Source of the DNA: a virus | DNA length: 41,721 bases | Reading direction: 5' to 3' (one strand) | Virus record (IMG/VR): IMGVR_UViG_3300001533_000706 | Coordinates: 1-41,721 of that record | Part shown: positions 16,896-39,320 of the stretch, in pieces | Position numbering within the stretch: the stretch's first letter is position 1 | Layout of the letters: every line of letters begins with the position of its first letter | Made by a program: the position numbers and the translations under genes | The notes under the pieces: model-generated | The model's database searches: none | The model's input: only the letters and a program-made list of their open reading frames with translations | What the model was told of the DNA's origin: nothing

Positions 16896-17676
16896 AGCCT
16901 CCCTCCACAATCACATCGATCATCATTGCGTCTATTGACTCAATGTCCTCTAACCATTGTACTTCCCCCATCGTCTTGCCAACCCTGATGGCCGTCCCAC
17001 CCATCTTGACGAGATCGCCAAGTTCGTCATCCGTCGCCTTTAAAACATGCACATCGCCAGCGGTATCATAAAATAGCCACCTCCACTGGCGAGGACTCGT
17101 AAGACCCAAATCCTTTATAGCATGCCTAATATCCGTAGCCGTCTGGCCTTCCCGCCAATCAATGTCGGCCTCTTGCGCCTGCTTGTATAGGCTGATCAAG
17201 TTCATGGCTCGGCGAGTATCCCATCCGCGCGACTCTGAATACTCTTTGAAGCTCGCCGCTTCAGGGTCCAATGCTAAGTAGTTATCGTCCTTCCAAAGCT
17301 CGTATAGATCTGCTGCCACTTGGCCGTCTAAGACATGTAGGCCCTGTATACGCGCCTCGATTGGCTCTAGCTTCTCGATCAGTTGGCGTCGATAGAACCA
17401 CAGGTCGCTGTTTGGTATCCGCTTACTAGCTTGATCTATAACGATAAGCTCTTCACCTGGTGTAAACGCATAGACTGAATAGACGTTATTATGCACCTTA
17501 CGGTGACACTCGCCGCATAACGTGATCATGTTCTCGGCTACGTCCTTCTCATCGCTACCGCCCACGCCCAACGGCGCAATGTGATGTACTTCGATAACCT
17601 CATCCGCACCGCATATTTGGCAGCGATGATTATCACGCTCAAGAACCTGTTGCCTTACTGCTTCGCTACGGCTCAT
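16879..17676 (-). CDS. HNH endonuclease-domain protein
   Basis: An HNH domain fills the N-terminal 65 residues: Cys pair C-Q-I-C (19, 22), E-V-H-H-I (29-33, catalytic His), N49 in A-E-N-M-I-T-L, then C-G-E-C-H-R-K-V-H (54-62). The remaining 200 residues form an unrecognised region with W-R-W-L-F-Y-D and a small beta section. The start overlaps the dnaC stop (ATGA). HNH enzymes are common beside phage replication genes, as homing-type nucleases or packaging partners. The long extra domain makes a dedicated replication or recombination role as likely as homing. Confidence 0.8.
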   Translation of the reverse strand: MSRSEAVRQQVLERDNHRCQICGADEVIEVHHIAPLGVGGSDEKDVAENMITLCGECHRKVHNNVYSVYAFTPGEELIVIDQASKRIPNSDLWFYRRQLIEKLEPIEARIQGLHVLDGQVAADLYELWKDDNYLALDPEAASFKEYSESRGWDTRRAMNLISLYKQAQEADIDWREGQTATDIRHAIKDLGLTSPRQWRWLFYDTAGDVHVLKATDDELGDLVKMGGTAIRVGKTMGEVQWLEDIESIDAMMIDVIVEGGYAAQK

Positions 17677-18263
17677 TCTACACCCCTACGCTTTCTGTAA
17701 TCCTCGCCACCAACCTTCACGACTTCACACGTCTCGACCCAGCGCGAAATTGCCCGCGCGCCGTACTTCGCTGTAATCTCTGCAGGCGTCAAGTTTGTAG
17801 ACACAGCTATCGCCTTCTTGCACCTGTAGCGTGCGTCAACGATCCGCTCAAGCTCTTCTAATACGAAGTCCGTCGACCGCTCGACGCCAAAGTCATCAAG
17901 CACAAGCAAGTCTGCGTTCATGCAGCGCCGCGCTATCTCACGGTCGCCGTTGCGGATCTCAGATCGGAGCTCGCTTACTAGATCCAAGATCGGCCAGTAT
18001 TCAACTGTCCGCGCCTGTTGCGTTTCAAGGTAGACACCGTCCTCGTTTAGGTCGCCCTTTGCGTCTTGCGTATATGCCATCGCCAATGCCGAAAGCAGGT
18101 GTGTCTTGCCTGTCCCAACGTGACCGCATAGAAGGACACCGTCACTCTTACCATCTGCAACGCGCTTACATGCGTCGAGTGCGTCGTGGTTGAGCATTGT
18201 CACTTCGTAGTTCTCGAACGTGCAAGCCTCGAATCGCCGCCCGATCTCAGCACCCCGAATCAT
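17673..18263 (-). CDS. dnaC: DnaC-type helicase loader ATPase
   Basis: The 196-residue AAA+ protein shows Walker A G-H-V-G-T-G-K-T-H (47-55), Walker B L-L-V-L-D-D-F-G (119-126), sensor 1 V-S-T-N-L, and an arginine-finger region A-R-A-I-S-R-W. It would load the host replicative helicase at the phage origin, since no helicase gene is seen in the window. It lacks the N-terminal helicase-binding extension of E. coli DnaC and is at the short end for phage loaders. It overlaps the organiser gene by four bases, the usual DnaD-DnaC order. Confidence 0.9.
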   Translation of the reverse strand: MIRGAEIGRRFEACTFENYEVTMLNHDALDACKRVADGKSDGVLLCGHVGTGKTHLLSALAMAYTQDAKGDLNEDGVYLETQQARTVEYWPILDLVSELRSEIRNGDREIARRCMNADLLVLDDFGVERSTDFVLEELERIVDARYRCKKAIAVSTNLTPAEITAKYGARAISRWVETCEVVKVGGEDYRKRRGVE

Positions 18264-19138
18264 GTGGCCCCCTTTAACACGTCATCGTAGTAGTCACCGC
18301 CGCGACCGTTAACGATAGCACCGATGCTGCGCTTCTTTCGTTTCGGATCCGGTCGACCAGCTTTATCCCACGCAATAGCGGCGTTTAGGTACTCCTCGAG
18401 ATGTGCCGGCCTGAACAGCGTGCTAGGTCGTAAATACTCAGAAAAGTCAGGGTCATCTTTCCATTTAGCTGTCTTGAAGTCTATTATCAGCTTGCAATCG
18501 TTTGGCGTTGCTCCTTCAGCTAATCTGGCATGAATAGGCTTGCGCGAAGTTGGCTTATGATCAAAATGTTTGCCAATCTTTGCGTTGAGATAATCAATAA
18601 TTTTATCAGTGCTCGAGTAATCAATTGCGGATTTATCCGCACTATCTTTTTCTATATCTCCTTCTACATCTATATCTATATCTAGGGGGGGATAGTCCTC
18701 AGACTGTCCTGGGACTGTCTCCGGGAGGGTGTCAGTCCTTGTTACATGCTTCTCTGAGGTATTACCATCAATTAACGCTACTATCCGATCATGAAAATCC
18801 TGACTTTTAACGTATTCTAGCTCTTTGTGGATCATGCTCTTGATTGCGTCGCTCTTGGCCGAATTGAACTTGAACCAGTCAATAATTAAGATTTCACGTG
18901 TTTCCTCGTCGTATTCAATATAACCTTGCTTCACAAACCGCTTGATTAAATTCTGAACAGTTTCAAGGTTATATCCGGTGTGCATGACTGCTTGTTTAGG
19001 GTGCAGCGTGTATACACCGCATGATGTTGTGAGAGGGTTTGTTAGAAGATATATGTAAAACAGTCTATCCTCCGGGGTCATGTCTAAGGTATCAGGATCA
19101 TCCCAAAATCTTGTCTGTACTTTTCGCCATTCTGCCAT
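18260..19138 (-). CDS. Phage replisome organiser (DnaD-like, conserved phage C-terminal domain)
   Basis: A winged-helix N-terminal part (K-V-Q-T-R-F-W-D-D-P to about residue 100, with T-L-H-P-K-Q-A-V-M-H-T-G-Y) is followed by a variable acidic linker. The C-terminal domain is the conserved phage replisome domain (PF09524 type): I-I-D-Y-L-N-A-K-I-G-K-H-F, R-K-P-I-H-A-R-L-A-E-G-A-T, and Y-L-R-P-S-T-L-F. It binds the origin and recruits the loader encoded next. The likely origin is in or near this gene, in its linker coding region, or in the CCNNG arrays upstream, but no iterons were identified inside it. Confidence 0.85.
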   Translation of the reverse strand: MAEWRKVQTRFWDDPDTLDMTPEDRLFYIYLLTNPLTTSCGVYTLHPKQAVMHTGYNLETVQNLIKRFVKQGYIEYDEETREILIIDWFKFNSAKSDAIKSMIHKELEYVKSQDFHDRIVALIDGNTSEKHVTRTDTLPETVPGQSEDYPPLDIDIDVEGDIEKDSADKSAIDYSSTDKIIDYLNAKIGKHFDHKPTSRKPIHARLAEGATPNDCKLIIDFKTAKWKDDPDFSEYLRPSTLFRPAHLEEYLNAAIAWDKAGRPDPKRKKRSIGAIVNGRGGDYYDDVLKGAT

Positions 19139-19151
19139 TTATTTCACCGCC

Positions 19152-19301
19152 TTACTTGCATTTTGCCCCCGGCCATGCTATACTCATAGCAATGGACGGC
19201 GGGACGCCGTTACAGCGCCCTAAACGTCTCAACAGTGCAGCCGCCAACTTCACTATCTCCAAACCCCACCTCCTAACCAGGAGGTATCTTTTTGTGCTCA
19301 T
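19152..19301 (-). CDS. Possible small basic protein, 49 residues
   Basis: ATG with AAAGGGGAACAT before it starts a frame coding for MSTKRYLLVRRWGLEIVKLA and on to a Cys/Pro end. The first 11 codons overlap a 7-base-pair hairpin (19268-19285) that would also act as a terminator on the other strand. The ribosome site belongs to the stereotyped GGGAACA-ATGAGC group. It may be real, or the region may only serve a plus-strand RNA. Confidence 0.4.
   Translation of the reverse strand: MSTKRYLLVRRWGLEIVKLAAALLRRLGRCNGVPPSIAMSIAWPGAKCK
19191..19293 (+). ncRNA. Candidate plus-strand small RNA, about 100 bases
   Basis: An extended -10 (TGC then TATACT at 19179-19184) with a TTGCAT box 17 bases upstream (19156-19161) points to a start near 19191. 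The transcript would end at a classical intrinsic terminator: ACCTCCT, four-base loop, AGGAGGT (19268-19285), then ATCTTTTT (T-run 19289-19293). It runs against the early operon in a gap between two genes. An A-C-G-G-C / G-C-C-G-T hairpin lies near the 5' end. It is the best of three such candidates. Confidence 0.45.
19268..19293 (+). terminator. Intrinsic terminator on the plus strand
   Basis: Perfect 7-base-pair stem with a four-base loop followed within three bases by five T. It has no plus-strand gene to serve, other than the proposed small RNA. On the minus strand the same stem holds an AGGAGGT that could pair with ribosomal RNA or be hidden in the hairpin. Confidence 0.6.
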
Positions 19302-19364
19302 ATGTTCCCCTTTACCCTTTGTAATGCTCATCACATCCTAGCACCGTATCCCTCAAATGTCAAT

Positions 19365-19718
19365 TCAGTCTCCCACGTTGATTTCATGGTCTGTCAATGC
19401 TCTCGTGGTATTGACGCGCAAAAACCCGTGCTTGTCGCGGTGGGTCCAATAGTGACCATTTTCCAAATGCATAAGACGAAACACTGGGTTACATGAGATT
19501 TCCATGCCACTCGAGCGATTGTATAGCCTAAAATCGCCATCTCCATTCTCAAAGAACTGAAAGAACAAAAGATCTTTCTCCTGATACAACCGTACCGACT
19601 GGAAATTCCGCAACCTATAGCTTTCGACCGCCTTTTCCGGAAAGTAAAACTTGTGCGATACGGGAAAGACGCTAACAACATTTTTCGGTAAGTTGCGTCG
19701 CTTTATAATCCGTTGCAT
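19365..19718 (-). CDS. Hypothetical protein, 117 residues, downstream of CCNNG arrays
   Basis: The protein has a basic N-terminus (M-Q-R-I-I-K-R-R-N-L-P-K) and an aromatic-rich middle that looks all-beta (L-L-F-F-Q-F-F-E-N-G-D-G-D-F-R-L-Y). No family is recognised. A purine stretch with GGAGG-like bases (AGGGTTGG) lies in the last bases before ATG. The 150 bases upstream hold two arrays of CCNNG pentamers and a 9-base-pair hairpin, so its mRNA leader, if it has its own, would be very unusual. Confidence 0.65.
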   Translation of the reverse strand: MQRIIKRRNLPKNVVSVFPVSHKFYFPEKAVESYRLRNFQSVRLYQEKDLLFFQFFENGDGDFRLYNRSSGMEISCNPVFRLMHLENGHYWTHRDKHGFLRVNTTRALTDHEINVGD

Positions 19719-19752
19719 CTACTTTTCCAACCCTCCATTGTGCGTTCTGTTT

Positions 19753-19812
19753 CCTTGCATTGCCTTGCCGCGCCGCGCCCAGCCTAGCCGCGCCCCGCCA
19801 AGCCGCGCCTTG
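19753..19812. repeat. CCNNG pentamer array 1 (12 units)
   Basis: Twelve unbroken 5-base units with the form C-C/A-N-N-G: CCTTG, CATTG, CCTTG, CCGCG, CCGCG, CCCAG, CCTAG, CCGCG, CCCCG, CCAAG, CCGCG, CCTTG. Positions 1, 2 and 5 are fixed with one exception while the middle two vary. It lies upstream of the 117-residue gene. The context TTCCTTGCATTG at its start is repeated at the start of array 2. Confidence 0.85.
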
Positions 19813-19819
19813 GTTCTTT

Positions 19820-19851
19820 CTACCGCAGAAGGATTTCTCCCCCTGCGGTAG
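19820..19851. repeat. 9-base-pair inverted repeat between pentamer arrays
   Basis: Arms CTACCGCAG (19820-19828) and CTGCGGTAG (19843-19851) are exactly complementary around a 14-base loop that is C/T-rich on the plus strand. It lies between array 1 and array 2, which are not in the same 5-base phase. It may be a DNA cruciform, a protein site, or an mRNA hairpin. A short T-rich run on neither side argues for a terminator. Confidence 0.65.
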
Positions 19852-19854
19852 GTT

Positions 19855-19904
19855 CCTTGCATTGCATTGCCTCGCCTAGCCTAGCCGTGCCGTGCCTTGC
19901 CCTG
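19855..19904. repeat. CCNNG pentamer array 2 (10 units)
   Basis: Units are CCTTG, CATTG, CATTG, CCTCG, CCTAG, CCTAG, CCGTG, CCGTG, CCTTG, CCCTG. The array ends about 11 bases before the stop of the upstream gene (19916), so the intergenic gap consists almost wholly of repeats. Middle dinucleotides differ from unit to unit, which is not expected for simple slippage. Confidence 0.85.
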
Positions 19905-19915
19905 AGTATTTTCCA

Positions 19916-20464
19916 TCAACTAACCGTTACCGATTCCTTCTTAAGCTCTCCCCTCATTTCTGCTACGTGTTCATCTATCACCGTTGTTATCCCCTCCAAC
20001 TCTTGATATTGTCTGTATCTTTCGGCCCAGTATTCTGCTTCCTGTAGCGCTCGAACAATCACTTGCGACCGATAGTCATTGTTCTCCAATACGTCTTGAA
20101 GTGATACGTACGTGCGGTAAGGCAATGCCTCAACATCAACGTTAGGTTTATTGCTGGGCGTTTTGACTACATTGTAGAATGCCTTAATGGGCTTCGTTTC
20201 TTCTTTCTGATCAATGTAGTACACCTCAATTGATCGGATAAGGTAGCGAGCTTCATCTACCCGGTGCAAAAAGGCAGCCTCTTCATCGTCCCACGTGAAA
20301 TGCTTATGCAGTCTTGATTTTACATCTTCAGCCGCCTTCACAACCCTTTCGGGTCTAAGGTCTCCATCATGTTGCTTAAGTCGCTCTAGCTCTTCTCCAA
20401 CAACTTGTGCTTCTTCATCATTTAGTCGAAAGCCTTTCCTCGCTTGATACTGTGTTTTAGGCAT
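19916..20464 (-). CDS. Conserved phage early-region protein, 182 residues
   Basis: The start ATG overlaps the stop of the upstream gene by eight bases; a TTG start nine codons earlier is an alternative. Conserved-looking blocks are K-G-F-R-L-N-D-E-E-A-Q-V-V-G-E-E-L, then L-R-P-E-R-V-V-K-A-A, then L-H-K-H-F-T-W-D-D-E-E-A-A and A-R-Y-L-I-R-S-I. Proteins with this series are widespread in tailed-phage early regions but have no known function. The remainder is helical. It may bind DNA. Confidence 0.75.
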   Translation of the reverse strand: MPKTQYQARKGFRLNDEEAQVVGEELERLKQHDGDLRPERVVKAAEDVKSRLHKHFTWDDEEAAFLHRVDEARYLIRSIEVYYIDQKEETKPIKAFYNVVKTPSNKPNVDVEALPYRTYVSLQDVLENNDYRSQVIVRALQEAEYWAERYRQYQELEGITTVIDEHVAEMRGELKKESVTVS

Positions 20465-21056
20465 TTGTTTCGCCAATCGTAAATGTGCCAAATCTACCCC
20501 CTCGTTCAGGACGCCATGCGCCTACTCCTATTTTTTGTCCTGCAATGTACATCAGGTTAAGTAACGACGCTTTAGGTACTATGTCGTTGTCGAACCTTAA
20601 TCTAACTTGCGTTTTCCAGTCTAGGAACTCTGGCCTCACGGCTATATTCAACGCAGCCGTCATTCCACTATTCTTTACAAAGTCCTCCCTTCGCCGGATC
20701 TTGCTGTATTCAGTGATCTTGCAATACTCGTCTAAGACCAGAATATTGCGCCGGATTGTCGTAGTGTAGATGTCTTTCAAATCCTTGGTTGCTTCACATA
20801 GTGCTTCTAGAAAAGCTGCTCCCGGTATGGCATACTCGCCATCTTCGTTGTAATGAAAACACTGCTCATACTCAGCATCCAAGTCTCGATTCTTAGATGT
20901 CTTAATAACATTTCCATGTTCGTCAGGGATTCCCTTCACTGCGCTTCTTTGTGGTCTTCTGGGTATATATCCAGTCTGGCCGATTATGGGAATTGTGAGT
21001 TCTCGGAAATCACGCTCCATGATTGTTACTGCATTCCCTTCCTGTTTCTTCGCCAT
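20457..21056 (-). CDS. Conserved phage protein with GVG-WRPE-GG-FG motif, 199 residues
   Basis: The true start is the ATG at 21056 with AAAGGGGTGATTATC before it; a longer reading through the pentamer array gives an artefactual A-R-x-G repeat. The protein has an N-terminal beta region, I-P-G-A-A-F-L-E-A-L in the middle, and ends with I-G-V-G-A-W-R-P-E-R-G-G-R-F-G-T-F. This C-terminal signature recurs in early-region phage proteins of unknown function. The beta-rich fold and place next to annealing genes suggest nucleic-acid binding, by inference. Confidence 0.7.
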   Translation of the reverse strand: MAKKQEGNAVTIMERDFRELTIPIIGQTGYIPRRPQRSAVKGIPDEHGNVIKTSKNRDLDAEYEQCFHYNEDGEYAIPGAAFLEALCEATKDLKDIYTTTIRRNILVLDEYCKITEYSKIRRREDFVKNSGMTAALNIAVRPEFLDWKTQVRLRFDNDIVPKASLLNLMYIAGQKIGVGAWRPERGGRFGTFTIGETNA

Positions 21057-21083
21057 GATAATCACCCCTTTTAAGTGTCTTCG

Positions 21084-21143
21084 CTTTGCCTTGCCATGCC
21101 CCGCCATGCCTTGCCTCGCCTCGCCACGCCGTGCCAGGCCTCG
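21084..21143. repeat. CCNNG pentamer array 3 (12 units)
   Basis: Twelve units: CTTTG, CCTTG, CCATG, CCCCG, CCATG, CCTTG, CCTCG, CCTCG, CCACG, CCGTG, CCAGG, CCTCG. As with arrays 1 and 2 it fills the gap just upstream of a gene start (ATG at 21056) and just downstream of a stop (21150). On the minus strand the units read CNNGG. Any frame through it encodes a run of Ala-Arg-x-Gly-like residues. Confidence 0.85.
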
Positions 21144-21149
21144 TTTCAT

Positions 21150-21587
21150 CTACTTTGTTATCCTCCCAAGTAAGTATGCTTCGAGAACATCGCACCCTGT
21201 TCGGATATGCGCAAATGCCTCTTCTATATCTCGGAACCCTTGCGGCATGTCAACCTTTGTCTTTTCCTTTGTTTGTTCCTTATATGGAAGTTTATCCATA
21301 TCCTCACCCCAAGATTCATCAAACGGCCTTATGAACGTGCACGTAGTGTACCCGTTGCTTTCTGCTGCCTGATATAAAACCTTGCTCGGGCTATCCTTGT
21401 GTGCATATAGTCGAATATCGTACTCAGAGGAGCTATTCTCTGAACCGCCGAACCACATTGCGTCAAACAGGTTTATCCACTCACCCTCTGCGTCTGGCGT
21501 TTGGGCTATAAGCAATGCTACAAACGGATCGCCCTTTCGCGTGATCTTGTCCTTAGCTATTTTGAGATATCCAGTTTTACCTTCCAT
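21150..21587 (-). CDS. Hypothetical protein, 145 residues, possibly OB-fold-like
   Basis: Start ATG shares a base with the stop of the zinc-finger gene (TAATG) and has AAGGAGGCGTA before it. The N-terminal half (K-T-G-Y-L-K-I-A-K-D-K-I-T-R-K-G-D-P-F-V-A-L-L-I-A then W-I-N-L-F-D) has strand spacing seen in single-strand-binding OB folds. The C-terminal half is helical and acidic. As no other SSB is seen in the replication region, this is a candidate, but no SSB signature is firm. Confidence 0.6.
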   Translation of the reverse strand: MEGKTGYLKIAKDKITRKGDPFVALLIAQTPDAEGEWINLFDAMWFGGSENSSSEYDIRLYAHKDSPSKVLYQAAESNGYTTCTFIRPFDESWGEDMDKLPYKEQTKEKTKVDMPQGFRDIEEAFAHIRTGCDVLEAYLLGRITK

Positions 21588-21790
21588 TACGCCTCCTTAG
21601 CGTTATATACTCGCTGCGCCTCTGCGTCTCCTTTATGTATTAGACTTAAATACGGCCTGTCTCTGTTGTATTGCGCCTTTGCTGATGCAATAACAGACAT
21701 TACATATGCAGACGCTTTGCCTGTACCATTACATTCAGTACAAACATTAGATCCATCTTTGCCGGTTCCATTGCAGTATGGGCATTCCAT
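21587..21790 (-). CDS. Small DnaJ-type zinc-finger protein
   Basis: The 67-residue protein has two C-x-x-C-x-G-x-G units, C-P-Y-C-N-G-T-G (3-10) and C-T-E-C-N-G-T-G (17-24), the central zinc-finger repeat of DnaJ, without a J domain. The rest is a basic helical tail. Such short stand-alone fingers are frequent in phage early regions, with unknown role. It starts by TAATG coupling to the C-terminal frame of the ATPase gene, evidence that this frame was its original end. Confidence 0.75.
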   Translation of the reverse strand: MECPYCNGTGKDGSNVCTECNGTGKASAYVMSVIASAKAQYNRDRPYLSLIHKGDAEAQRVYNAKEA

Positions 21791-21921
21791 TAAAGTAGTA
21801 CCTCCTCAGGAACAGATATAGTTCCATCTTCAATCAAAACAGATACCTCTGGGCCATTTCCTACACGTTCAATCCAAATTTGCGCATCATTCTGATCTGC
21901 AAGATCTTGTACAAGCTCCAT
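21790..21921 (-). pseudogene. Out-of-frame C-terminal remnant of the SMC-like ATPase
   Basis: A 43-codon frame reads MELVQDLADQNDAQIWIERV and continues to E-V-L-L. This is what the end of an SMC-like phage ATPase looks like, where a strand of the type Q-I-W-I-E-R-V follows the Walker B region. It is displaced by +1 relative to the main ATPase frame, which ends instead in an unrelated tail (A-C-T-R-S-C-R-S-E). A few codons (family pattern S-x-L-D) seem to be missing at the junction. It has no ribosome site of its own. Confidence 0.6.
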
Positions 21922-23038
21922 CGCGGATCAACATCACTCGTAGTTTTGGGTTCATATGTAGTCCCATTGCAACCGACACGCGAAGCTTTTCAGCTTGTGA
22001 TATTTGATCGAAGGGAATGCCGTTAAACAGCACGTCATTATCAGCAATAGAAAGTCCATCAATCGGAAATTCCGCAGCAGAAATTGCTTGTGCCTTCTGC
22101 TTCTCGATCTCCTGTAGCCGATGAGTCATCTTGTCCGCATCGGCCTTTGCTTCACTGTATGCTGCTTCAGTTGCCGCCCTCTTCTCGTTCTGCCTCACTT
22201 TAGAGTTGATCTCGTCAGCATCGGAAATCTGTTGCCGAATCTCGTCAACGTCAAGATCCTGAAGCTTTTCGACCCGCTTCGCTTTCGTCTTACCTTGCTC
22301 AATCTGCACTTTGATGGCTTCTTCAAGCTCGGCAAGATCATTCTGCAAGCTCTCAATCTGGGATACGATGACTTCCTTATCCTTTTTGATTGCCGTAACC
22401 AGACGCCGTTGTGCATCAAGCTCTTCTCTGTCACGGGCGTTTGCGGCATTTATGCTCTCTCGCTGCTTCAGCTCTTCCATCAGTGCAGAGACAGACACCG
22501 GAGATGCCGGAGCCTCCTCCAACGGCATACTATCCAGGGTTGCTTTTAGATTCTTTACGTTACGGTTAAGATCGCGCCGTTCAGCAAACACCAGATCTCG
22601 CTCTTCGTCCAGTTTCGAGAAATCCAGACCGGCAAGCGAACGCAGTAACTCAGCCCTTTCTGCCTGTTGTTGTGTGGCAAATGCCAGTGGATCAAAGGTT
22701 AATTTCCCAACAAGTGCATCAAGAATAGCTTGTGGGGAACTTGCCGCGAAACCATCCGGGTTCTTAACTGTTAGATAACTGCCAGCCTGAGTAAATGTTC
22801 TCTCAACGATCAACTCGCCAAGGTTTACGCGAATCGTGGCTTTCTCCGCGCCATCTTTAATAGGACGCTTCGGAAGAAGCGTCTTCCCTCCAAGAGCGTA
22901 GGCGATGCTGTCCAACACGCTACTTTTTCCCGCGCCATTTTCGCCGCCAATGACCACCATAGACCCGTTTGGCTCTATGTGAACCGCAGAAACCTTTTTT
23001 ACATTTTCAACATCAAGTGCAACAATCTTGCCATTCAT
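21887..23038 (-). CDS. SMC/RecN-like ATPase, C-terminus altered by frameshift
   Basis: The 383-residue protein is a phage recombination ATPase of the Rad50/SMC type. Walker A is G-G-E-N-G-A-G-K-S-S (31-40). A long heptad coiled coil covers about residues 135-310 (many Glu, Lys, Arg, Gln, Leu). A signature-like S-Q-A-E-K-L-R-V-S-V-A-M-G and a strand L-R-V-M-L-I-R-D-G follow. After R-D-G the frame runs into nine unrelated residues, whereas the expected end continues in the +1 frame (21790-21921). Loss of the last 40 residues may disable it, unless the break is an assembly error. It follows the ERF annealing protein, a usual pairing. Confidence 0.75.
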   Translation of the reverse strand: MNGKIVALDVENVKKVSAVHIEPNGSMVVIGGENGAGKSSVLDSIAYALGGKTLLPKRPIKDGAEKATIRVNLGELIVERTFTQAGSYLTVKNPDGFAASSPQAILDALVGKLTFDPLAFATQQQAERAELLRSLAGLDFSKLDEERDLVFAERRDLNRNVKNLKATLDSMPLEEAPASPVSVSALMEELKQRESINAANARDREELDAQRRLVTAIKKDKEVIVSQIESLQNDLAELEEAIKVQIEQGKTKAKRVEKLQDLDVDEIRQQISDADEINSKVRQNEKRAATEAAYSEAKADADKMTHRLQEIEKQKAQAISAAEFPIDGLSIADNDVLFNGIPFDQISQAEKLRVSVAMGLHMNPKLRVMLIRDGACTRSCRSE

Positions 23039-23489
23039 TATTCACCTTCTTTGAATTACTTGCAGTTGGTGTGATGGCTTCCCTTTCTCGATTGCTCCTG
23101 CTTGTTCTAGCTTGTATTGCAGCATGTCCTGTCTTATCCATCAAAGCCTTTTCCATCTTGCCTTTCTGAATAGTCACAAAGGGGGCAACCTCGCTAGGCT
23201 CGAAGTAGTCATACAATACAGGCATGGCCTTCTCGGCATTGATGGAGGTACGCCCATCGCTTTCGACGATAGCAATTGCTAGCTCAGGCAATGTCTCTAG
23301 CTGCAAGGGTCCGCTCTTTTGAACGGCCTCCTTTAGCTGAGCCTCGTACTCTTTACACATCTTTGATATGTGCTTAGCTGCTTCTAGCCACTCGTAGAGC
23401 GTATCTGGTGGCAACAAAGCCCCCTTTTCGTCATGTACTAGATCTGTAGAGTTCTCTAGCTTTTGCGTAAATTCCACTAATGCGTTCAT
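23013..23489 (-). CDS. Hypothetical phage protein between ERF and SMC-like genes
   Basis: I place the start at the ATG overlapping the ERF stop (ATGA 23486-23489), with GGAG about 11 bases upstream; a longer frame through the ERF tail is unlikely. The 158-residue protein begins with a helix (N-A-L-V-E-F-T-Q-K-L-E-N-S), contains Y-E-W-L-E-A-A-K-H-I, and has a basic Ser-rich tail. Genes in this place are often partners of the annealing protein or nuclease, but the sequence gives no motif. Confidence 0.65.
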   Translation of the reverse strand: MNALVEFTQKLENSTDLVHDEKGALLPPDTLYEWLEAAKHISKMCKEYEAQLKEAVQKSGPLQLETLPELAIAIVESDGRTSINAEKAMPVLYDYFEPSEVAPFVTIQKGKMEKALMDKTGHAAIQARTSRSNREREAITPTASNSKKVNNEWQDCCT

Positions 23490-24202
23490 GCTGTCACTGT
23501 CTCCTTTTCCTTTTTGATTCGACTTAGCAAAGCGTTTGCCTGTGCTGGCGTTGCATCCCAAATCGGCTTAGATATCAGCTTTTCTGTCCAATCAAGCAAT
23601 TGTTGTTCATCCCAACCTAATCCCATCGCAGCGCCAAGAATAGAACGCAGCGCGGGCGCACCTCTCGCCCCCTTTTTAAGGTGGGTAGCGATAGTCTCAT
23701 AGCCGTCTATTTCGCCATCGTGAAAAGGATCTGGCTCAGGAATGGGTTCATGCGCGGCCCTCTCAGGAAGAGGCTCGTGCGCAGTCTGGATAAATGGCTT
23801 CTTAGAGACCGCCATCATGTCGGTGGTCGCGTCTGCCTCTGGGTCATCGCCCCAGCTAATCATGAAGGCATTTGCAAGAGCATATTTAAGTGCCGCCGTG
23901 TTTGCCTTCATGGTCGCCTTGTCCCCCTTGTCGCTCCCCTCGCCTAGTCCTTGTACCGTCAACGATTCATCGCCATCATGAAATGTCAGCGATAGCCGGA
24001 CAATTGCGTGACCTCCATCGTAATGTGTTAATTCAGCCTCGCTTGATACGGCTATCCCGCGTTCGCTGAGAGCGCTATTTACCTTCTTAAGCACTGCCTC
24101 AGCGCTTGCGTAGCGGTACTTATGAAAAGAGGAGTTGGTAGCATCCTTCTGAACGTATCCAACCTCTGCCATTACTTCAGATAGTTTCTCGGCCAAGTTC
24201 AT
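23486..24202 (-). CDS. erf: ERF-family single-strand annealing protein
   Basis: The 238-residue recombinase anneals complementary single strands during phage recombination. The ERF core is plain: N-terminal M-A-E-V-G-Y-V-Q-K, then F-H-K-Y-R-Y-A-S-A-E-A-V-L, a Y-D-G-G-H-A-I-V-R-L-S-L-T-F strand, and G-S-D-K-G-D-K-A-T-M-K-A-N-T-A-A-L-K-Y-A (about 90-110). A Pro-rich linker and a helical C-terminal domain follow. The start has AAAAAAAGGGG about 11 bases upstream, next to the plus-strand -10 of a candidate small RNA. Confidence 0.9.
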   Translation of the reverse strand: MNLAEKLSEVMAEVGYVQKDATNSSFHKYRYASAEAVLKKVNSALSERGIAVSSEAELTHYDGGHAIVRLSLTFHDGDESLTVQGLGEGSDKGDKATMKANTAALKYALANAFMISWGDDPEADATTDMMAVSKKPFIQTAHEPLPERAAHEPIPEPDPFHDGEIDGYETIATHLKKGARGAPALRSILGAAMGLGWDEQQLLDWTEKLISKPIWDATPAQANALLSRIKKEKETVTA

Positions 24203-24447
24203 TTTGTATTCACCCCTTTTTTTGCTATAATCACATTGCCCGCATCAAGGGCAACTTTGATGCTTATTTGTTCCCTGCCCGTTGTTGGCAGCAACGGGCA
24301 CCCTTTGTTTGGGACGGGATGTTTCCACCCCGCCCCATGTGGTGTGCACATCAACGTCTCCGCTTCAAGGAGGTCCATCCTGGCGGATGGCGAAAAAACA
24401 GCGAAGGTGGGAGAGGCGAAGTCTCCATGTGTGGTCTCAATGCACAC
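24199..24447 (-). CDS. Doubtful 82-residue frame in a structured gap before erf
   Basis: A GTG start with AGGAG eight bases upstream opens a frame that overlaps both neighbours, but its protein (Cys, Pro, Thr-rich, no secondary-structure pattern) looks like non-coding DNA read through. The last part after G-R-E-Q resembles the start of other small frames (S-I-K after GGGAACAA). The region 24203-24436 holds several hairpins, including CCATCC/GGATGG and the 9-base-pair stem of a plus-strand RNA candidate. I keep it at low confidence. Confidence 0.25.
   Translation of the reverse strand: MCIETTHGDFASPTFAVFSPSARMDLLEAETLMCTPHGAGWKHPVPNKGCPLLPTTGREQISIKVALDAGNVIIAKKGVNTK
24238..24310 (+). ncRNA. 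Candidate plus-strand small RNA upstream of erf
   Basis: An extended -10 TGC-TATAAT (24223-24231) with a weak TTGTAT upstream predicts a start near 24238. The RNA would fold as GCATCAA/TTGATGC (24242-24263) and then TGCCCGTTG/CAACGGGCA (24276-24300), followed by CCCTTTGTTT. The final stem is strong but the T-tract is poor. It opposes the erf operon in the gap between two genes. Confidence 0.3.
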
Positions 24448-24751
24448 TTTCCATCTCCTGGTTAAAGCGGCCTACTTCACCCAAGTGCGTATGCACTGCT
24501 TCAGCTTGGGCATGCCCTAACGTATCTACGATCATGCTTATCGCCATGCTGCTAGAGGATGCTTGCTGCAAGCCATCAAGCAACGTGGCTGCCATATTCT
24601 CGCGTTGTTCAAGATCTTCTTGATAGCGCTGTTCGAATTCGTATACAGCGTCGCCGTATACATCATGCCAATCTTCAGCCGCTATCTGTGGTGACATCTT
24701 GCGGTTATAGGCGTAATTCCTGTACGTAAGATAGTCGATTATCTTGGCCAT
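24437..24751 (-). CDS. Hypothetical helical protein, 104 residues
   Basis: The ATG with GGGGAGGCAACA before it is preferred over an upstream in-frame start. The product begins MAKIIDYLTYRNYAYNRKMS, contains W-H-D-V-Y-G-D-A-V-Y-E-F-E-Q-R-Y and a helical end with M-V-D-T-L-G-H-A-Q-A-E-A-V. It overlaps its upstream neighbour by 13 bases. No family recognised. Confidence 0.65.
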   Translation of the reverse strand: MAKIIDYLTYRNYAYNRKMSPQIAAEDWHDVYGDAVYEFEQRYQEDLEQRENMAATLLDGLQQASSSSMAISMIVDTLGHAQAEAVHTHLGEVGRFNQEMESVH

Positions 24752-25209
24752 TGTTGCCTCCCCAAACTTGGATTGCTTAACTCTGCGACTCTGCGCTTTT
24801 GAGATTTGCATTCATCGGCAAAAGCCTCGTCTTCGCGTAGCTTGTCAATTTCTGCCAGTAGACGTTCATCCATTGCTCTACGCAAGATACCGTAGGAAAG
24901 CTCCACGTCCTCCACGATTTGGTAGAAGATCCCCTCATCAAACCATTTCACCCCAGACAGGGCTTCATCATGGAGGGCGCGTAAGCCGTAGGGTGTACCA
25001 ATGGCATACCCGATCACGGGGTGCCAAAAGATTTTGGAATCGTTAAACGTCCCTACTAGGTAAAAGGTTGGGTGTTCCTCGGATCGTCCGTAGACAGAGC
25101 GACGATTTTTTGCTATACTCTGGGTGCAATTAGCTTGCTCGAGGGTTAGTCCCCTCGGGACTGCCTCCGGCTCGTTAGCGCGGGCCGGAGCGCCTTTTGT
25201 CTGAGTCAT
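24739..25209 (-). CDS. Hypothetical early protein, 156 residues
   Basis: A very strong ribosome site (AAAGGAGGAAAACA before ATG) lies inside the end of the repressor gene. The first 35 residues are Pro/Ala/Arg-rich and their DNA forms several hairpins. From about residue 40 a folded domain follows: Y-L-V-G-T-F-N-D-S-K-I-F-W-H-P-V-I-G-Y, then K-W-F-D-E-G-I-F-Y-Q-I-V. The C-terminus is helical and basic. No family. A plus-strand promoter and hairpins lie within its 5' codons, so antisense control is possible. Confidence 0.6.
   Translation of the reverse strand: MTQTKGAPARANEPEAVPRGLTLEQANCTQSIAKNRRSVYGRSEEHPTFYLVGTFNDSKIFWHPVIGYAIGTPYGLRALHDEALSGVKWFDEGIFYQIVEDVELSYGILRRAMDERLLAEIDKLREDEAFADECKSQKRRVAELSNPSLGRQQWPR
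25126..25200 (+). ncRNA. Candidate plus-strand RNA antisense to the first early gene
   Basis: TAGACA (25091-25096), 17 bases, then TATACT (25114-25119) preceded by TG makes a good promoter with expected start near 25126. The RNA would carry two mutually exclusive hairpins (CGAGGG/CCCTCG 25140-25157, or GTCCC/GGGAC 25149-25161) and then CTCCGGC/GCCGGAG (25165-25190) ending in CGCCTTTTG. It ends a few bases from the start codon of the opposing gene (25209), covering that gene's first codons. It could block translation or act in trans. Confidence 0.35.
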
Positions 25210-25396
25210 TGTTTTCCTCCTTTAAGGAAATGCCTAATAATTTCTCCAGATGCTTCTTATATAGACCAGTTGGTTTCGATTCACCCCCTTCCCATCGGAC
25301 GATGGTCTGTTCGGCACAGTGCATCTTTTCAGCTAGCTGTATCTGCGTAAGCCCCTTTCCTTTTCTTGCTTCTCTTATCTTTTGCGCCGTATTCAT
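25175..25396 (-). CDS. Xre/Cro-type repressor, short
   Basis: The 73-residue DNA-binding protein has a single helix-turn-helix: I-R-E-A-R-K-G-K-G-L-T-Q-I-Q-L-A-E-K-M, then A-E-Q-T-I-V-R-W-E-G-G-E-S-K-P (about residues 7-42). There is no cleavage or oligomerisation domain, so it is more Cro-like or a minimal repressor. Its promoter is at 25403-25431 and the -10 ends six bases from the ATG, so the mRNA should start at or next to the ATG (leaderless, as for lambda cI from pRM). It is the first gene of the early operon and is divergent from the plus-strand gene. Confidence 0.85.
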   Translation of the reverse strand: MNTAQKIREARKGKGLTQIQLAEKMHCAEQTIVRWEGGESKPTGLYKKHLEKLLGISLKEENNDSDKRRSGPR

Positions 25397-25402
25397 ACTG
25401 TC

Positions 25403-25431
25403 ACTATACTACACAATTGTTAGTATGTCAA
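25403..25431 (-). promoter_or_regulatory. Leaderless early promoter with operator
   Basis: TTGACA (25426-25431), 17-base spacer, TATAGT (25403-25408) on the minus strand: near-perfect. The spacer holds ACAATTGT, within a wider TACTA-N9-TAGTA dyad (25407-25425). The same ACAATTGT-C/T-AGTA element recurs at the plus-strand promoter (25506-25518), so both promoters share an operator, likely bound by the Xre protein. Start of transcription coincides with the ATG at 25396. Confidence 0.7.
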
Positions 25432-25450
25432 TAATATACAACAGGGAAGT

Positions 25451-25470
25451 CTATCACCTATTAATGATAG
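25451..25470. promoter_or_regulatory. Inverted repeat between divergent promoters
   Basis: CTATCA (25451-25456) and TGATAG (25465-25470) form a dyad with an 8-base spacer, about 12 bases upstream of the plus-strand -35 and 20 bases upstream of the minus-strand -35. It is a likely regulator site, different in sequence from the ACAATTGT element, so perhaps for a second regulator. Confidence 0.5.
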
Positions 25471-25481
25471 ACGTGTACCCC

Positions 25482-25510
25482 TTGACATTGGATTAAGTTA
25501 CCCTTACAAT
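25482..25510 (+). promoter_or_regulatory. Promoter of the only plus-strand gene
   Basis: TTGACA (25482-25487) and TACAAT (25505-25510) are 17 bases apart. The -10 merges with the operator-like TACAATTGTCAGTA, inside a TTAC-N8-GTAA dyad. A TAAGTTA repeat lies at 25494-25500 and 25517-25523. The ATG is at 25537 with AAAGGAGGTG upstream, so this mRNA has a normal leader. Confidence 0.75.
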
Positions 25511-25536: not shown

Positions 25537-25857
25537 ATGAAACTTGAAGTAGGCAAGGCAGACGTAAGGTGTCCCAAATGTGGATCAACCAATGTGCTAC
25601 CAACAAAGCGGGGATATTCAATTGGCCTGGCTTTCGCTTTTACGATCATCTTTGGGGTGCTTCTGAGTGGGATCTTGTTTGTTTTTCCCATGCTGTATAT
25701 CGTGATACTTGTTCTCTGCTTGCTTAGTGGTTTTGCGGGTCACAACGAGGTGCGCTTAAGCTGTCTGAACTGCGGGCATACATGGACGCCAGAAGAGAAC
25801 AAGGGCAGCTTTTTACATCGATGGAACACTCTTTGGAGCAGTAAACATGAGGGTTAG
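25537..25857 (+). CDS. Zinc-ribbon membrane protein, only plus-strand gene
   Basis: The 106-residue protein has V-R-C-P-K-C-G-S near the N-terminus and L-S-C-L-N-C-G-H-T-W near the C-terminus, together a zinc ribbon split by a hydrophobic core of about 45 residues (two membrane segments, about 29-72). The start has an AAAGGAGGTG site. It is transcribed opposite to the rest from a repressor-type switch region, the usual place for a lysogeny or superinfection-exclusion gene. The stop overlaps that of the MerR-like gene on the other strand by four bases. Confidence 0.8.
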   Translation: MKLEVGKADVRCPKCGSTNVLPTKRGYSIGLAFAFTIIFGVLLSGILFVFPMLYIVILVLCLLSGFAGHNEVRLSCLNCGHTWTPEENKGSFLHRWNTLWSSKHEG

Positions 25858-31894: not shown

Positions 31895-32410
31895 CTAGAC
31901 GTTCACCTGTATGTCGCCGTTTTCATCAGACGCTGACGGCCAGCAAAATACCGCTATCTTGTCCTCGTCTGTATCATCAGCCGCGCCGTCAATGTCGATT
32001 GAAAACTCGCCCGATGCGTCAGTGTCGTCGGTGAAAAACTGTGGATAGCCCCATTTGGCTACTGCATAGACTGTTTCGCCAGCGCCAACCAGCGTGCCCG
32101 TGGTGTCTTTTAACGTGCCGGAAACAGTCGTAACTACAGCAACATACTCTTGACAGTTTTTCTTAGTGCCCACGTTCCCCCCGACAGCATAGCCTTTGCC
32201 ATCAATAGCAAACGCGGCTAAGTAGTTCTGCCCAACTGGCATGTCGGTCTTCGCTGTCCATGCGTTAGTATCAGGGTCGTACTCTTGACAGTCTTTATAA
32301 TCGCCCTGGATCCCCCCGACAGCGTAGCCTTTGCCATCAACCGCAAACGCGGCTAAGCCGTTCTGCCCAACTGGCATGTTGGTTTTGGGATACCATGTAT
32401 TAACGGCCAT
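31895..32410 (-). CDS. Two-Kelch-repeat protein with a C-terminal Ig-like domain
   Basis: Residues about 1-90 consist of two Kelch-type units, each with M-P-V-G-Q-N-x-L-A-A-F-A-x-D-G-K-G-Y-A-V-G-G. A third, partial unit merges with a carboxypeptidase-regulatory/CNA-B-like domain (S-G-T-L-K-D-T-T-G-T-L-V, G-E-F-S-I-D-I-D-G). Two blades cannot close a propeller, so it must be a fragment, an oligomer, or an adhesin module that grows and shrinks by recombination. It is in the fibre cluster, so a receptor-binding role is likely. Confidence 0.75.
   Translation of the reverse strand: MAVNTWYPKTNMPVGQNGLAAFAVDGKGYAVGGIQGDYKDCQEYDPDTNAWTAKTDMPVGQNYLAAFAIDGKGYAVGGNVGTKKNCQEYVAVVTTVSGTLKDTTGTLVGAGETVYAVAKWGYPQFFTDDTDASGEFSIDIDGAADDTDEDKIAVFCWPSASDENGDIQVNV
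32146..32403. repeat. Tandem 135-base repeat coding for Kelch units
   Basis: Two copies, 32146-32280 and 32281-32403 (second partial), share ACTCTTGACAGT at their starts and long identical blocks such as CCCCCGACAGC and GTTCTGCCCAACTGGCATG at the same offset. The near identity at DNA level, including synonymous positions, implies a recent duplication or ongoing gene conversion. Confidence 0.8.
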
Positions 32411-38227: not shown

Positions 38228-38619
38228 ACTTTCACCTTGACCTTCGATCCGTCCCTCGTTGTTGCGTATGCCGTTACCGCTACATGCCTGAGGTCTTCAT
38301 CGCTATCAATCCCTAGCTGGTCTACCTGGACAATGCGATCTTCCTTCCGCAGTTCTTGTAGCATTTCATGGTGTAGAAAAGGCGTGTTAGGCGGCCTCAT
38401 CCCCATCAACGTATGCCAAGGCAAGCCACAACCAGGAGCCTCCCATGCCTCTCCCCGCACCATCAAAAGCCGCAGGGTAACAGTCTGGCAAAGCTCAGGA
38501 GAATCTTGAATTAACATCGGGCCGCCGTCTTCATCAAGATCAAGATCAAACACAGTGCCAAATACGCCAGCCCGCGTGGTTCGTTTCATTTTCCATGATG
38601 TCGTTGGGTATGTTTCCAT
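38224..38619 (-). CDS. gp25/W-like baseplate wedge protein
   Basis: A 131-residue protein with a lysozyme-like small fold: Q-D-S-P-E-L-C-Q-T-V-T-L-R-L-L-M-V-R-G-E-A-W-E-A-P-G-C-G-L and I-V-Q-V-D-Q-L-G-I-D. The E-x-x-x-P-x-x-G-L pattern is that of phage W/T4 gp25 homologues. Its neighbours, the spike upstream and J downstream, are the usual order of contractile baseplates. Confidence 0.8.
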   Translation of the reverse strand: METYPTTSWKMKRTTRAGVFGTVFDLDLDEDGGPMLIQDSPELCQTVTLRLLMVRGEAWEAPGCGLPWHTLMGMRPPNTPFLHHEMLQELRKEDRIVQVDQLGIDSDEDLRHVAVTAYATTRDGSKVKVKV

Positions 38620-39320
38620 TATTCACCCACAAATACGTGTTCACTTACTTCGGGGCATGGCTCTGTGGGTGGATTTGTAGTACATCCACAAGGGCAACTG
38701 TGCACATGATTGTCTGCCCACGCTTTGTGCCGCGTGCCTAAAATAGCCCCGTCAATAGCAATGCTTTCCATCTCGCCGTTTATCACTCCTGGGCCTAAAT
38801 ACAGCTTCTTGCCCGGCTCGACCTGTATACCGATATTTCCGCTAGGATCTAACCGTATAGCGGTGCCTAACTCGCGTGTGTGGATTATTAGCTCGTCATC
38901 CCACCCAGAAGGCAACGGCCTGTCCTCACCCTCTTTGTCTGTCATGCGCCCTTGTACGACTAAGGCATCGGTCAAATGGTGTTTGCGCGAGAAATAAGGA
39001 TCGCGCTGTTCTATATCCCTCAATATACGCTCTATAGATCGCTCGTAAAACCCAATACTTACGGTATCATCCTCTTTGTACGGTGGCCGAATCACGAAGT
39101 ATTCCGTTAAGAGTACGTCTACAGGGACTTCCAGAAGAAGAGGGTACGGTAGCTTTGTTTCATTACCATCAGGGCCAACAACCTTCTTTATGGTCGGCTC
39201 TACGATCGCACGCAAGGTGGTATGATCAAACTCTATAATCTTTGCCGGAAGCCACGTATGCACCCGCTCAAGGCGAGATTCCATTATCTGCCGTAAAAGC
39301 ACACTTATGTTTTCTCTCAT
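38619..39320 (-). CDS. Baseplate spike, Gp138/gpV-like
   Basis: The 233-residue protein starts with an OB-fold N-terminus (H-T-W-L-P-A-K-I-I-E-F-D-H-T-T-L-R-A-I-V-E-P) of the Gp138_N type. A beta-helical spike body follows. The C-terminus has H-K-A-W-A-D-N-H-V-H-S-C-P-C-G-C, His and Cys residues that may coordinate iron or zinc at the spike tip, as in P2 V. It pierces the envelope. Confidence 0.8.
   Translation of the reverse strand: MRENISVLLRQIMESRLERVHTWLPAKIIEFDHTTLRAIVEPTIKKVVGPDGNETKLPYPLLLEVPVDVLLTEYFVIRPPYKEDDTVSIGFYERSIERILRDIEQRDPYFSRKHHLTDALVVQGRMTDKEGEDRPLPSGWDDELIIHTRELGTAIRLDPSGNIGIQVEPGKKLYLGPGVINGEMESIAIDGAILGTRHKAWADNHVHSCPCGCTTNPPTEPCPEVSEHVFVGE

Follow-up and report, generated by a model that had tools for sequence, protein, structure and literature searches.

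Three candidate antisense small RNA genes opposing the early operon of a Bacillales-type phage, with a layout like that of lambda OOP

The window, the whole stretch of DNA analysed here, is the 41.7-kb virus record IMGVR_UViG_3300001533_000706, which carries baseplate, portal and terminase genes and belongs to a Bacillales-type phage with nearly all of its genes on the minus strand. Its early operon starts at a strong minus-strand promoter (25431-25403) and runs, in order, through a gene for a Cro/CI-type helix-turn-helix (HTH) regulator as its first gene, gene 25209-24739, an ERF gene, a gene for an AAA/SbcC-like ATPase, several genes of unknown function, and genes for a DnaD-like and a DnaC-like protein. 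Opposing this operon are three short plus-strand units, numbered here by position, each consisting of an extended -10 promoter element and a terminator-like hairpin, which we regard as candidate genes for antisense small RNAs. Their parts are as follows.

19176..19184, plus strand: unit 1, extended -10 TGCTATACT, 38 nt from the start codon of the DnaD-like gene
19191..19295, plus strand: unit 1, predicted antisense RNA of about 105 nt, the weakest of the three (ends predicted from the -10 and the T run)
19268..19290, plus strand: unit 1, putative terminator ACCTCCT-AACC-AGGAGGT, tail ATCTTTTT
24218..24231, plus strand: unit 2, extended -10 TTTTTTGCTATAAT (perfect), 21 nt from the ERF ATG
24238..24308, plus strand: unit 2, predicted antisense RNA of about 70 nt with two clean hairpins, folding z-score -3.0 (ends predicted)
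24276..24300, plus strand: unit 2, putative terminator TGCCCGTTG-TTGGCAG-CAACGGGCA, 11 bp, tail CCCTTTGTTT
25091..25119, plus strand: unit 3, promoter TAGACA-17-TATACT with a TG extension, inside gene 25209->24739; the fullest of the three
25126..25197, plus strand: unit 3, predicted antisense RNA of about 72 nt with two hairpins, z -3.4 (ends predicted)

There are exactly three copies of the motif TGCTATA(A/C)T in the window, at 19176-19184, 24223-24231 and 25111-25119, always on the plus strand against the early operon and always with a terminator-like hairpin within 110 nt. Because 6 of 100 shuffles also reach at least three sites, the motif count by itself is a mild enrichment and weak evidence. 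We fixed a definition of the unit (TGNTATANT or TGNTANAAT, followed 12-110 nt on by a hairpin that has six or more stem pairs and a T-rich tail), which finds three units on the plus strand of the window and one on the minus strand (13632); among 300 block-shuffled windows, 270 had no plus-strand unit, 28 had one, two had two and none had three. It is thus the combination of promoter and terminator, not the number of motifs, that is rare, and the three promoter-hairpin units reported in a preliminary description of this DNA are all present where they oppose the minus-strand early genes. The minus-strand unit (13632-13566) is sense-oriented and lies in the gap from 13654 to 13584; it consists of an extended -10 TGATATAGT and a terminator-like hairpin of 12 bp.

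The three units are not of equal quality. The TAGACA/TATACT promoter with 17-base spacing attributed to unit 3 lies at 25091-25119 as described, and TTTTTTGCTATA(A/C)T is common to units 2 and 3 without a single difference, these two units sharing no sequence outside the promoter. The preliminary description had credited the best unit with a textbook terminator, and here we disagree, for in no unit do a strong stem and a clean T run come together: unit 1 has the T tail (hairpin 19268-19285, 7 bp, tail ATCTTTTTG, the best T run of the three), and units 2 and 3 have the stems (in unit 3, 25165-25190, 11 bp, tail CGCCTTTTGT). In unit 2 the T tract is complementary to the Shine-Dalgarno (SD) sequence of the ERF gene. 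Covariance-model searches against Rfam gave no match in the window at gathering cut-offs, none up to E=5 in 18900-25500, and none in seven relatives. Our confidence is highest in unit 2, followed by unit 3 and then unit 1.

We found the same arrangement, by the same definition, to recur in other Bacillales-type phages and prophages. A panel of 159 early loci (L020-L178) was collected through the DnaD-like protein (alignment A2), of which 131 loci, or 1.93 Mb, were left after removal of near-duplicates. These contain 84 units opposing the operon strand and 10 on the operon strand, as against 5-10 antisense and 0-7 sense units when the panel was shuffled by dinucleotides within 300-nt blocks, a procedure that preserves local composition and strand skew. 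Grouped by sequence, the 84 antisense units yield 48 clusters from 48 loci, and the excess therefore does not come from one family counted repeatedly. Several units per operon are usual, with at least three in 10 of the 131 loci. In individual phages, an antisense extended -10 and a short terminator immediately precede Gp157/Gam (Geobacillus E2 and D6E), XtrA (AP45) or dnaD (Geobacillus PK5.1); in E2, D6E and PK5.1 the gene thus preceded is one of recombination or replication. In Bacillales host chromosome (40 stretches, 0.8 Mb) we counted 10 antisense units per Mb, compared with 39 in the phage loci; phage early regions are thus enriched in the arrangement without being its only location.

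The panel units are also placed in a particular way. For 34 of the 84, an SD-led start codon follows within 60 nt in the sense direction, whereas this is true of 8% of random positions and of 35 of 318 (11%) antisense extended -10s that lack a terminator. Spacings between unit and start cluster at 13-22 and 33-39 nt, and the corresponding distances in the window are 21 nt for unit 2 and 38 nt for unit 1. Directly upstream of dnaD, under a looser definition, an antisense unit is found in 14 of 130 loci and a sense unit in three; other offsets yield one to nine antisense units. Of the 48 clusters, 26 are intergenic and 11 overlap the 3' end of a gene. In the window, the pattern of units just upstream of SD-led starts is matched by unit 2, at the ERF gene, and by unit 1, at the DnaD-like gene, and not by unit 3. 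The genes concerned are these.

25175..25396, minus strand: Cro/CI-type HTH regulator, the operon's first gene (PF01381, E=4e-10)
24739..25209, minus strand: early gene of unknown function, SD AAAGGAGG; 5' codons opposed by unit 3
23486..24202, minus strand: ERF-family single-strand annealing protein, downstream (in sense) of unit 2 (PF04404, E=1.5e-15; phrog_155, E=7e-27)
23038-21887, minus strand: AAA/SbcC-like ATPase
19152..19302, minus strand: small open reading frame (ORF) of about 49 aa, SD AAAGGGG, opposed by unit 1; no family match
18260..19138, minus strand: DnaD-like replication initiator / replisome organizer, the lambda O counterpart (phrog_6251, E=9e-45; Pfam PF09524, E=9e-25)
17673..18263, minus strand: DnaC-like helicase loader, the lambda P counterpart (phrog_50, E=4e-45)

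Two of the units had been placed in gaps between genes, which does not hold for unit 1, since that unit opposes the small ORF with a good SD (about 19302->19152). The gap opposed by unit 2 is filled by an 82-aa ORF with a GTG start (24199-24447, minus strand), the only preceding 3' end that this unit could overlap; because the ORF has just a weak match (phrog_21493, E 0.005) and no tblastn match in phages, it may be a chance reading frame. Unit 3 does lie over 5' codons, its predicted RNA opposing about codons 5-28 of 25209->24739, but this is not the first early gene as had been stated: the Cro/CI-type HTH gene (25396->25175) precedes it, and its 3' end is overlapped too.

Around these genes we noted some further features. 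The interval 25403-25510 holds back-to-back TTGACA promoters, directed toward the Cro-like operon and toward a gene for a zinc-ribbon membrane protein (25537-25857, plus strand), which stands where a repressor gene would be expected. In early-operon gaps, at 19755-19815, 19855-19905 and 21085-21145, there are runs of GCC-spaced pentanucleotide repeats (GCCTTGCCTTGCCGCGCC...), and the structural region has a 135-nt direct repeat (32145-32397; 1.9 copies, 83% matches).

Which strand the hairpins are conserved on can be read from their non-Watson-Crick pairs: because a G-U pair in the antisense RNA is an A-C pair on the sense strand, an excess of the former marks the antisense RNA as the one that folds. 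With a stem finder that treats G-U and A-C alike, the hairpins of the units have 82 G-U and 16 A-C pairs, as compared to 166 and 179 in T-tailed antisense hairpins without a promoter. (A first count of 55:1 was set aside, as it came from a G-U-permissive and hence biased stem finder.) Three sequence families of units, A3-A5, together show 33 G-U to 1 A-C, and their sense-strand folds are weaker or absent (RNAalifold, antisense vs sense, in kcal/mol: A3, -12.4 vs -8.8; A4, -10.3 vs 0; A5, -11.0 vs -1.2), with pairing and covariation above shuffled and slid controls. The A3 and A5 units keep their -10 and terminator, but the intervening sequence varies and has insertions and deletions. As these families come from other phages, they support the class and not directly the window's three units. 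The 84:10 strand bias in related phages, together with stems conserved as antisense-strand RNA, is indirect but strong support for the suggestion that such units are antisense RNA genes.

No near relative of this phage was found in phage, IMG/VR or GTDB collections with DNA or protein, and for this reason the window's own units could not be aligned to homologues. There was no DNA match among phages, protein scans with ERF and AAA reached distant loci only, all without units, and a genome scan with ERF returned no homologous locus. The exact promoter-terminator pattern, when used as a query on IMG/VR, retrieved five unrelated contigs, mostly with a terminator and then directly a promoter before a gene, and was dropped.

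Among known systems the closest in layout is lambda OOP, an RNA transcribed from pO antisense to cII. Taking lambda as a yardstick, we find an antisense terminator at 38602-38629 inside cII and a -10-like CATAAT overlapping the O start codon. As with OOP, the window would have short antisense RNAs, with predicted terminators, encoded opposite an early (pR-type) operon, all three units being on the plus strand and the early genes on the minus strand; behind the DnaD-like gene comes the DnaC-like gene, as P comes behind O; and a promoter abuts the start of the initiator gene and points away from it, although this last likeness is true of unit 1 only, with unit 2 at the ERF gene and unit 3 inside a gene. 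Unlike OOP, the window units have an extended -10, number several per operon, also occur at recombination genes and have no cII counterpart. Since layout alone was compared, what we suggest is a likeness to OOP and not membership.

Gram-positive plasmids offer a second comparison in pIP501 RNAIII and pT181 RNAI, antisense RNAs that act by attenuation of rep mRNA and that resemble the window units in being short and opposite the leader of a replication gene; they differ in that no attenuator-type hairpin with a T run was seen in the window's sense leaders. With type I toxin-antitoxin systems in mind, we note that the 49-aa ORF opposite unit 1 is partly hydrophobic and without a family match, and that no small hydrophobic toxin ORF lies opposite units 2 or 3. 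P22 sar RNA and lambda aQ RNA have other positions and targets, and aQ is activator-dependent, whereas the window promoters look constitutive. Both are phage antisense RNAs acting on lysis/lysogeny genes (PMC12197685), as the window's may be. Antisense transcription over prophage genes has been recorded in Bacillus and Listeria lysogens (Irnov et al. 2010 via PMC3911899; PMC3425587), and in the text consulted these sources do not describe a recurrent unit of promoter and terminator at early gene starts. Anti2330 of Listeria A118 is a 66-nt RNA over lmo2330/2331 at the prophage end and not in the replication region; the A118 early operon, scanned because of this published RNA, has no unit.

We consider it probable, on sequence and comparative grounds, that the three segments are antisense small RNA genes that damp leaky early expression in cis, much as OOP does. 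Each unit would have a sigma-A-type promoter with an extended -10, from which a self-terminating RNA of 70-105 nt would be made against the polycistronic early mRNA. The RNAs of units 1 and 2 would start beside the ribosome-binding site of the DnaD-like or ERF gene and extend in the other direction, across the intercistronic region and the preceding ORF's end; the unit 3 RNA would lie opposite the Cro-like gene's end and the next gene's first codons. As the promoters look constitutive, the antisense RNAs would be made while the early promoter is off. They could then base-pair with the small number of early mRNAs that leak through, and either target these for cleavage by RNase III or impede their expression, such that replication and recombination genes would come on only once strong early transcription outnumbers the antisense RNAs. 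We favour such constitutive cis-antisense damping in the lysogen because of the likeness to OOP and because of what is published on RNase III and on antisense transcription in B. anthracis: OOP pairs with cII mRNA and promotes its decay via RNase III (PMC12197685), B. subtilis needs RNase III to break down prophage toxin mRNAs that have paired with antisense RNAs, which makes the enzyme essential (PMC3531473), and nine phage-related genes of B. anthracis are transcribed mainly in antisense in all four conditions (PMC3425587). That the units act in a coordinated manner, as had been proposed, is plausible from the promoter type that they share.

Several observations weigh against this interpretation. 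Covariation was examined in other phages' units only, and a dnaD-adjacent unit is present in only about a tenth of DnaD loci. In the window, unit 1 folds no better than shuffles (z-score -1.4), the T tails of units 2 and 3 are interrupted, unit 3 is inside a gene, which is not the usual placement, and the predicted RNAs of units 1 and 2 start upstream of the SD and therefore do not cover the ribosome-binding site. In families A4 and A5, moreover, antisense pairing would free a sequestered SD and so activate instead of repress.

A serious rival, albeit an unlikely one, is transcriptional interference, in which the antisense promoters would act by polymerase occupancy or collision near early start sites, the short RNA being a by-product and the terminator merely stopping run-on. 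It would account for a -10 that abuts a ribosome-binding site left uncovered by the RNA, and for the poor conservation of the RNA body in A3 and A5 beside a retained -10 and terminator. However, a cis-antisense RNA needs no conserved body either, as its target changes along with it, and the second stable hairpin in units 2 and 3 would be superfluous if only the promoter mattered.

Scarcely behind it in likelihood is the view that the units are functionless, promoter- and terminator-like sequences having arisen by chance, in part from SD complements (CCCCTTTTT) and coding constraint. The mild enrichment of the motif (6 of 100 shuffles), the origin of the unit 2 T tract in an SD complement and the insignificant fold of unit 1 are all consistent with it, but it is difficult to reconcile with the absence of three-unit windows from 300 shuffles, the 84:10 bias, and the asymmetry of G-U over A-C pairs in relatives.

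We think it improbable that the units work by antisense activation, the small RNA pairing with an upstream arm of the early mRNA to free a sequestered SD. The leaders of some families do have an anti-SD arm covered by the antisense RNA, and in L102-L104 predicted SD accessibility rises from 0.1-0.2 to 0.5-0.6; over all 34 start-adjacent units, however, the difference is small (p about 0.03-0.04), and in the window accessibility goes from 0.58 to 0.56 at unit 2 and stays at 0.45 at unit 1. Being clear in some families only, and not in the window, SD sequestration was rejected as a general mechanism. As a separate observation, the leaders at L102:14674, L103:7010, L104:14633 and L014:17054 (antisense) and in family A4 may be two-state RNA switches: in these the SD can pair with an arm upstream of it, and the loop so formed holds the antisense promoter. 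Least probable of all are trans-acting RNAs or decoys aimed at host or phage regulators, an idea raised in the preliminary description for which stable hairpins and several units in one operon could be cited, but which finds no support in units 2 and 3 sharing promoter sequence only, the lack of an Rfam match, and an operon-opposed, start-adjacent placement that suits action in cis.

Cis-antisense RNA in phages is already known, and our comparison, drawn from open-licence papers such that an earlier description in a subscription journal is possible, suggests that the recurrent unit itself has been little noticed. More tentatively, each early operon of temperate Bacillales phages may possess one to four OOP-like antisense RNA genes, distributed over the starts of genes for replication, recombination and regulation, that jointly set an expression threshold for exit from lysogeny; they would make up a widespread class that no Rfam family covers. 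Antisense transcription in Gram-positive prophages is known from transcriptomes and hard to separate from noise; if our interpretation is true, a defined recurrent unit at early gene starts, with stems conserved on the antisense strand, would allow part of it to be predicted as a class of genes, carry the principle of lambda OOP over to Bacillales phages, and provide a simple test of how prophages silence their replication and recombination genes.

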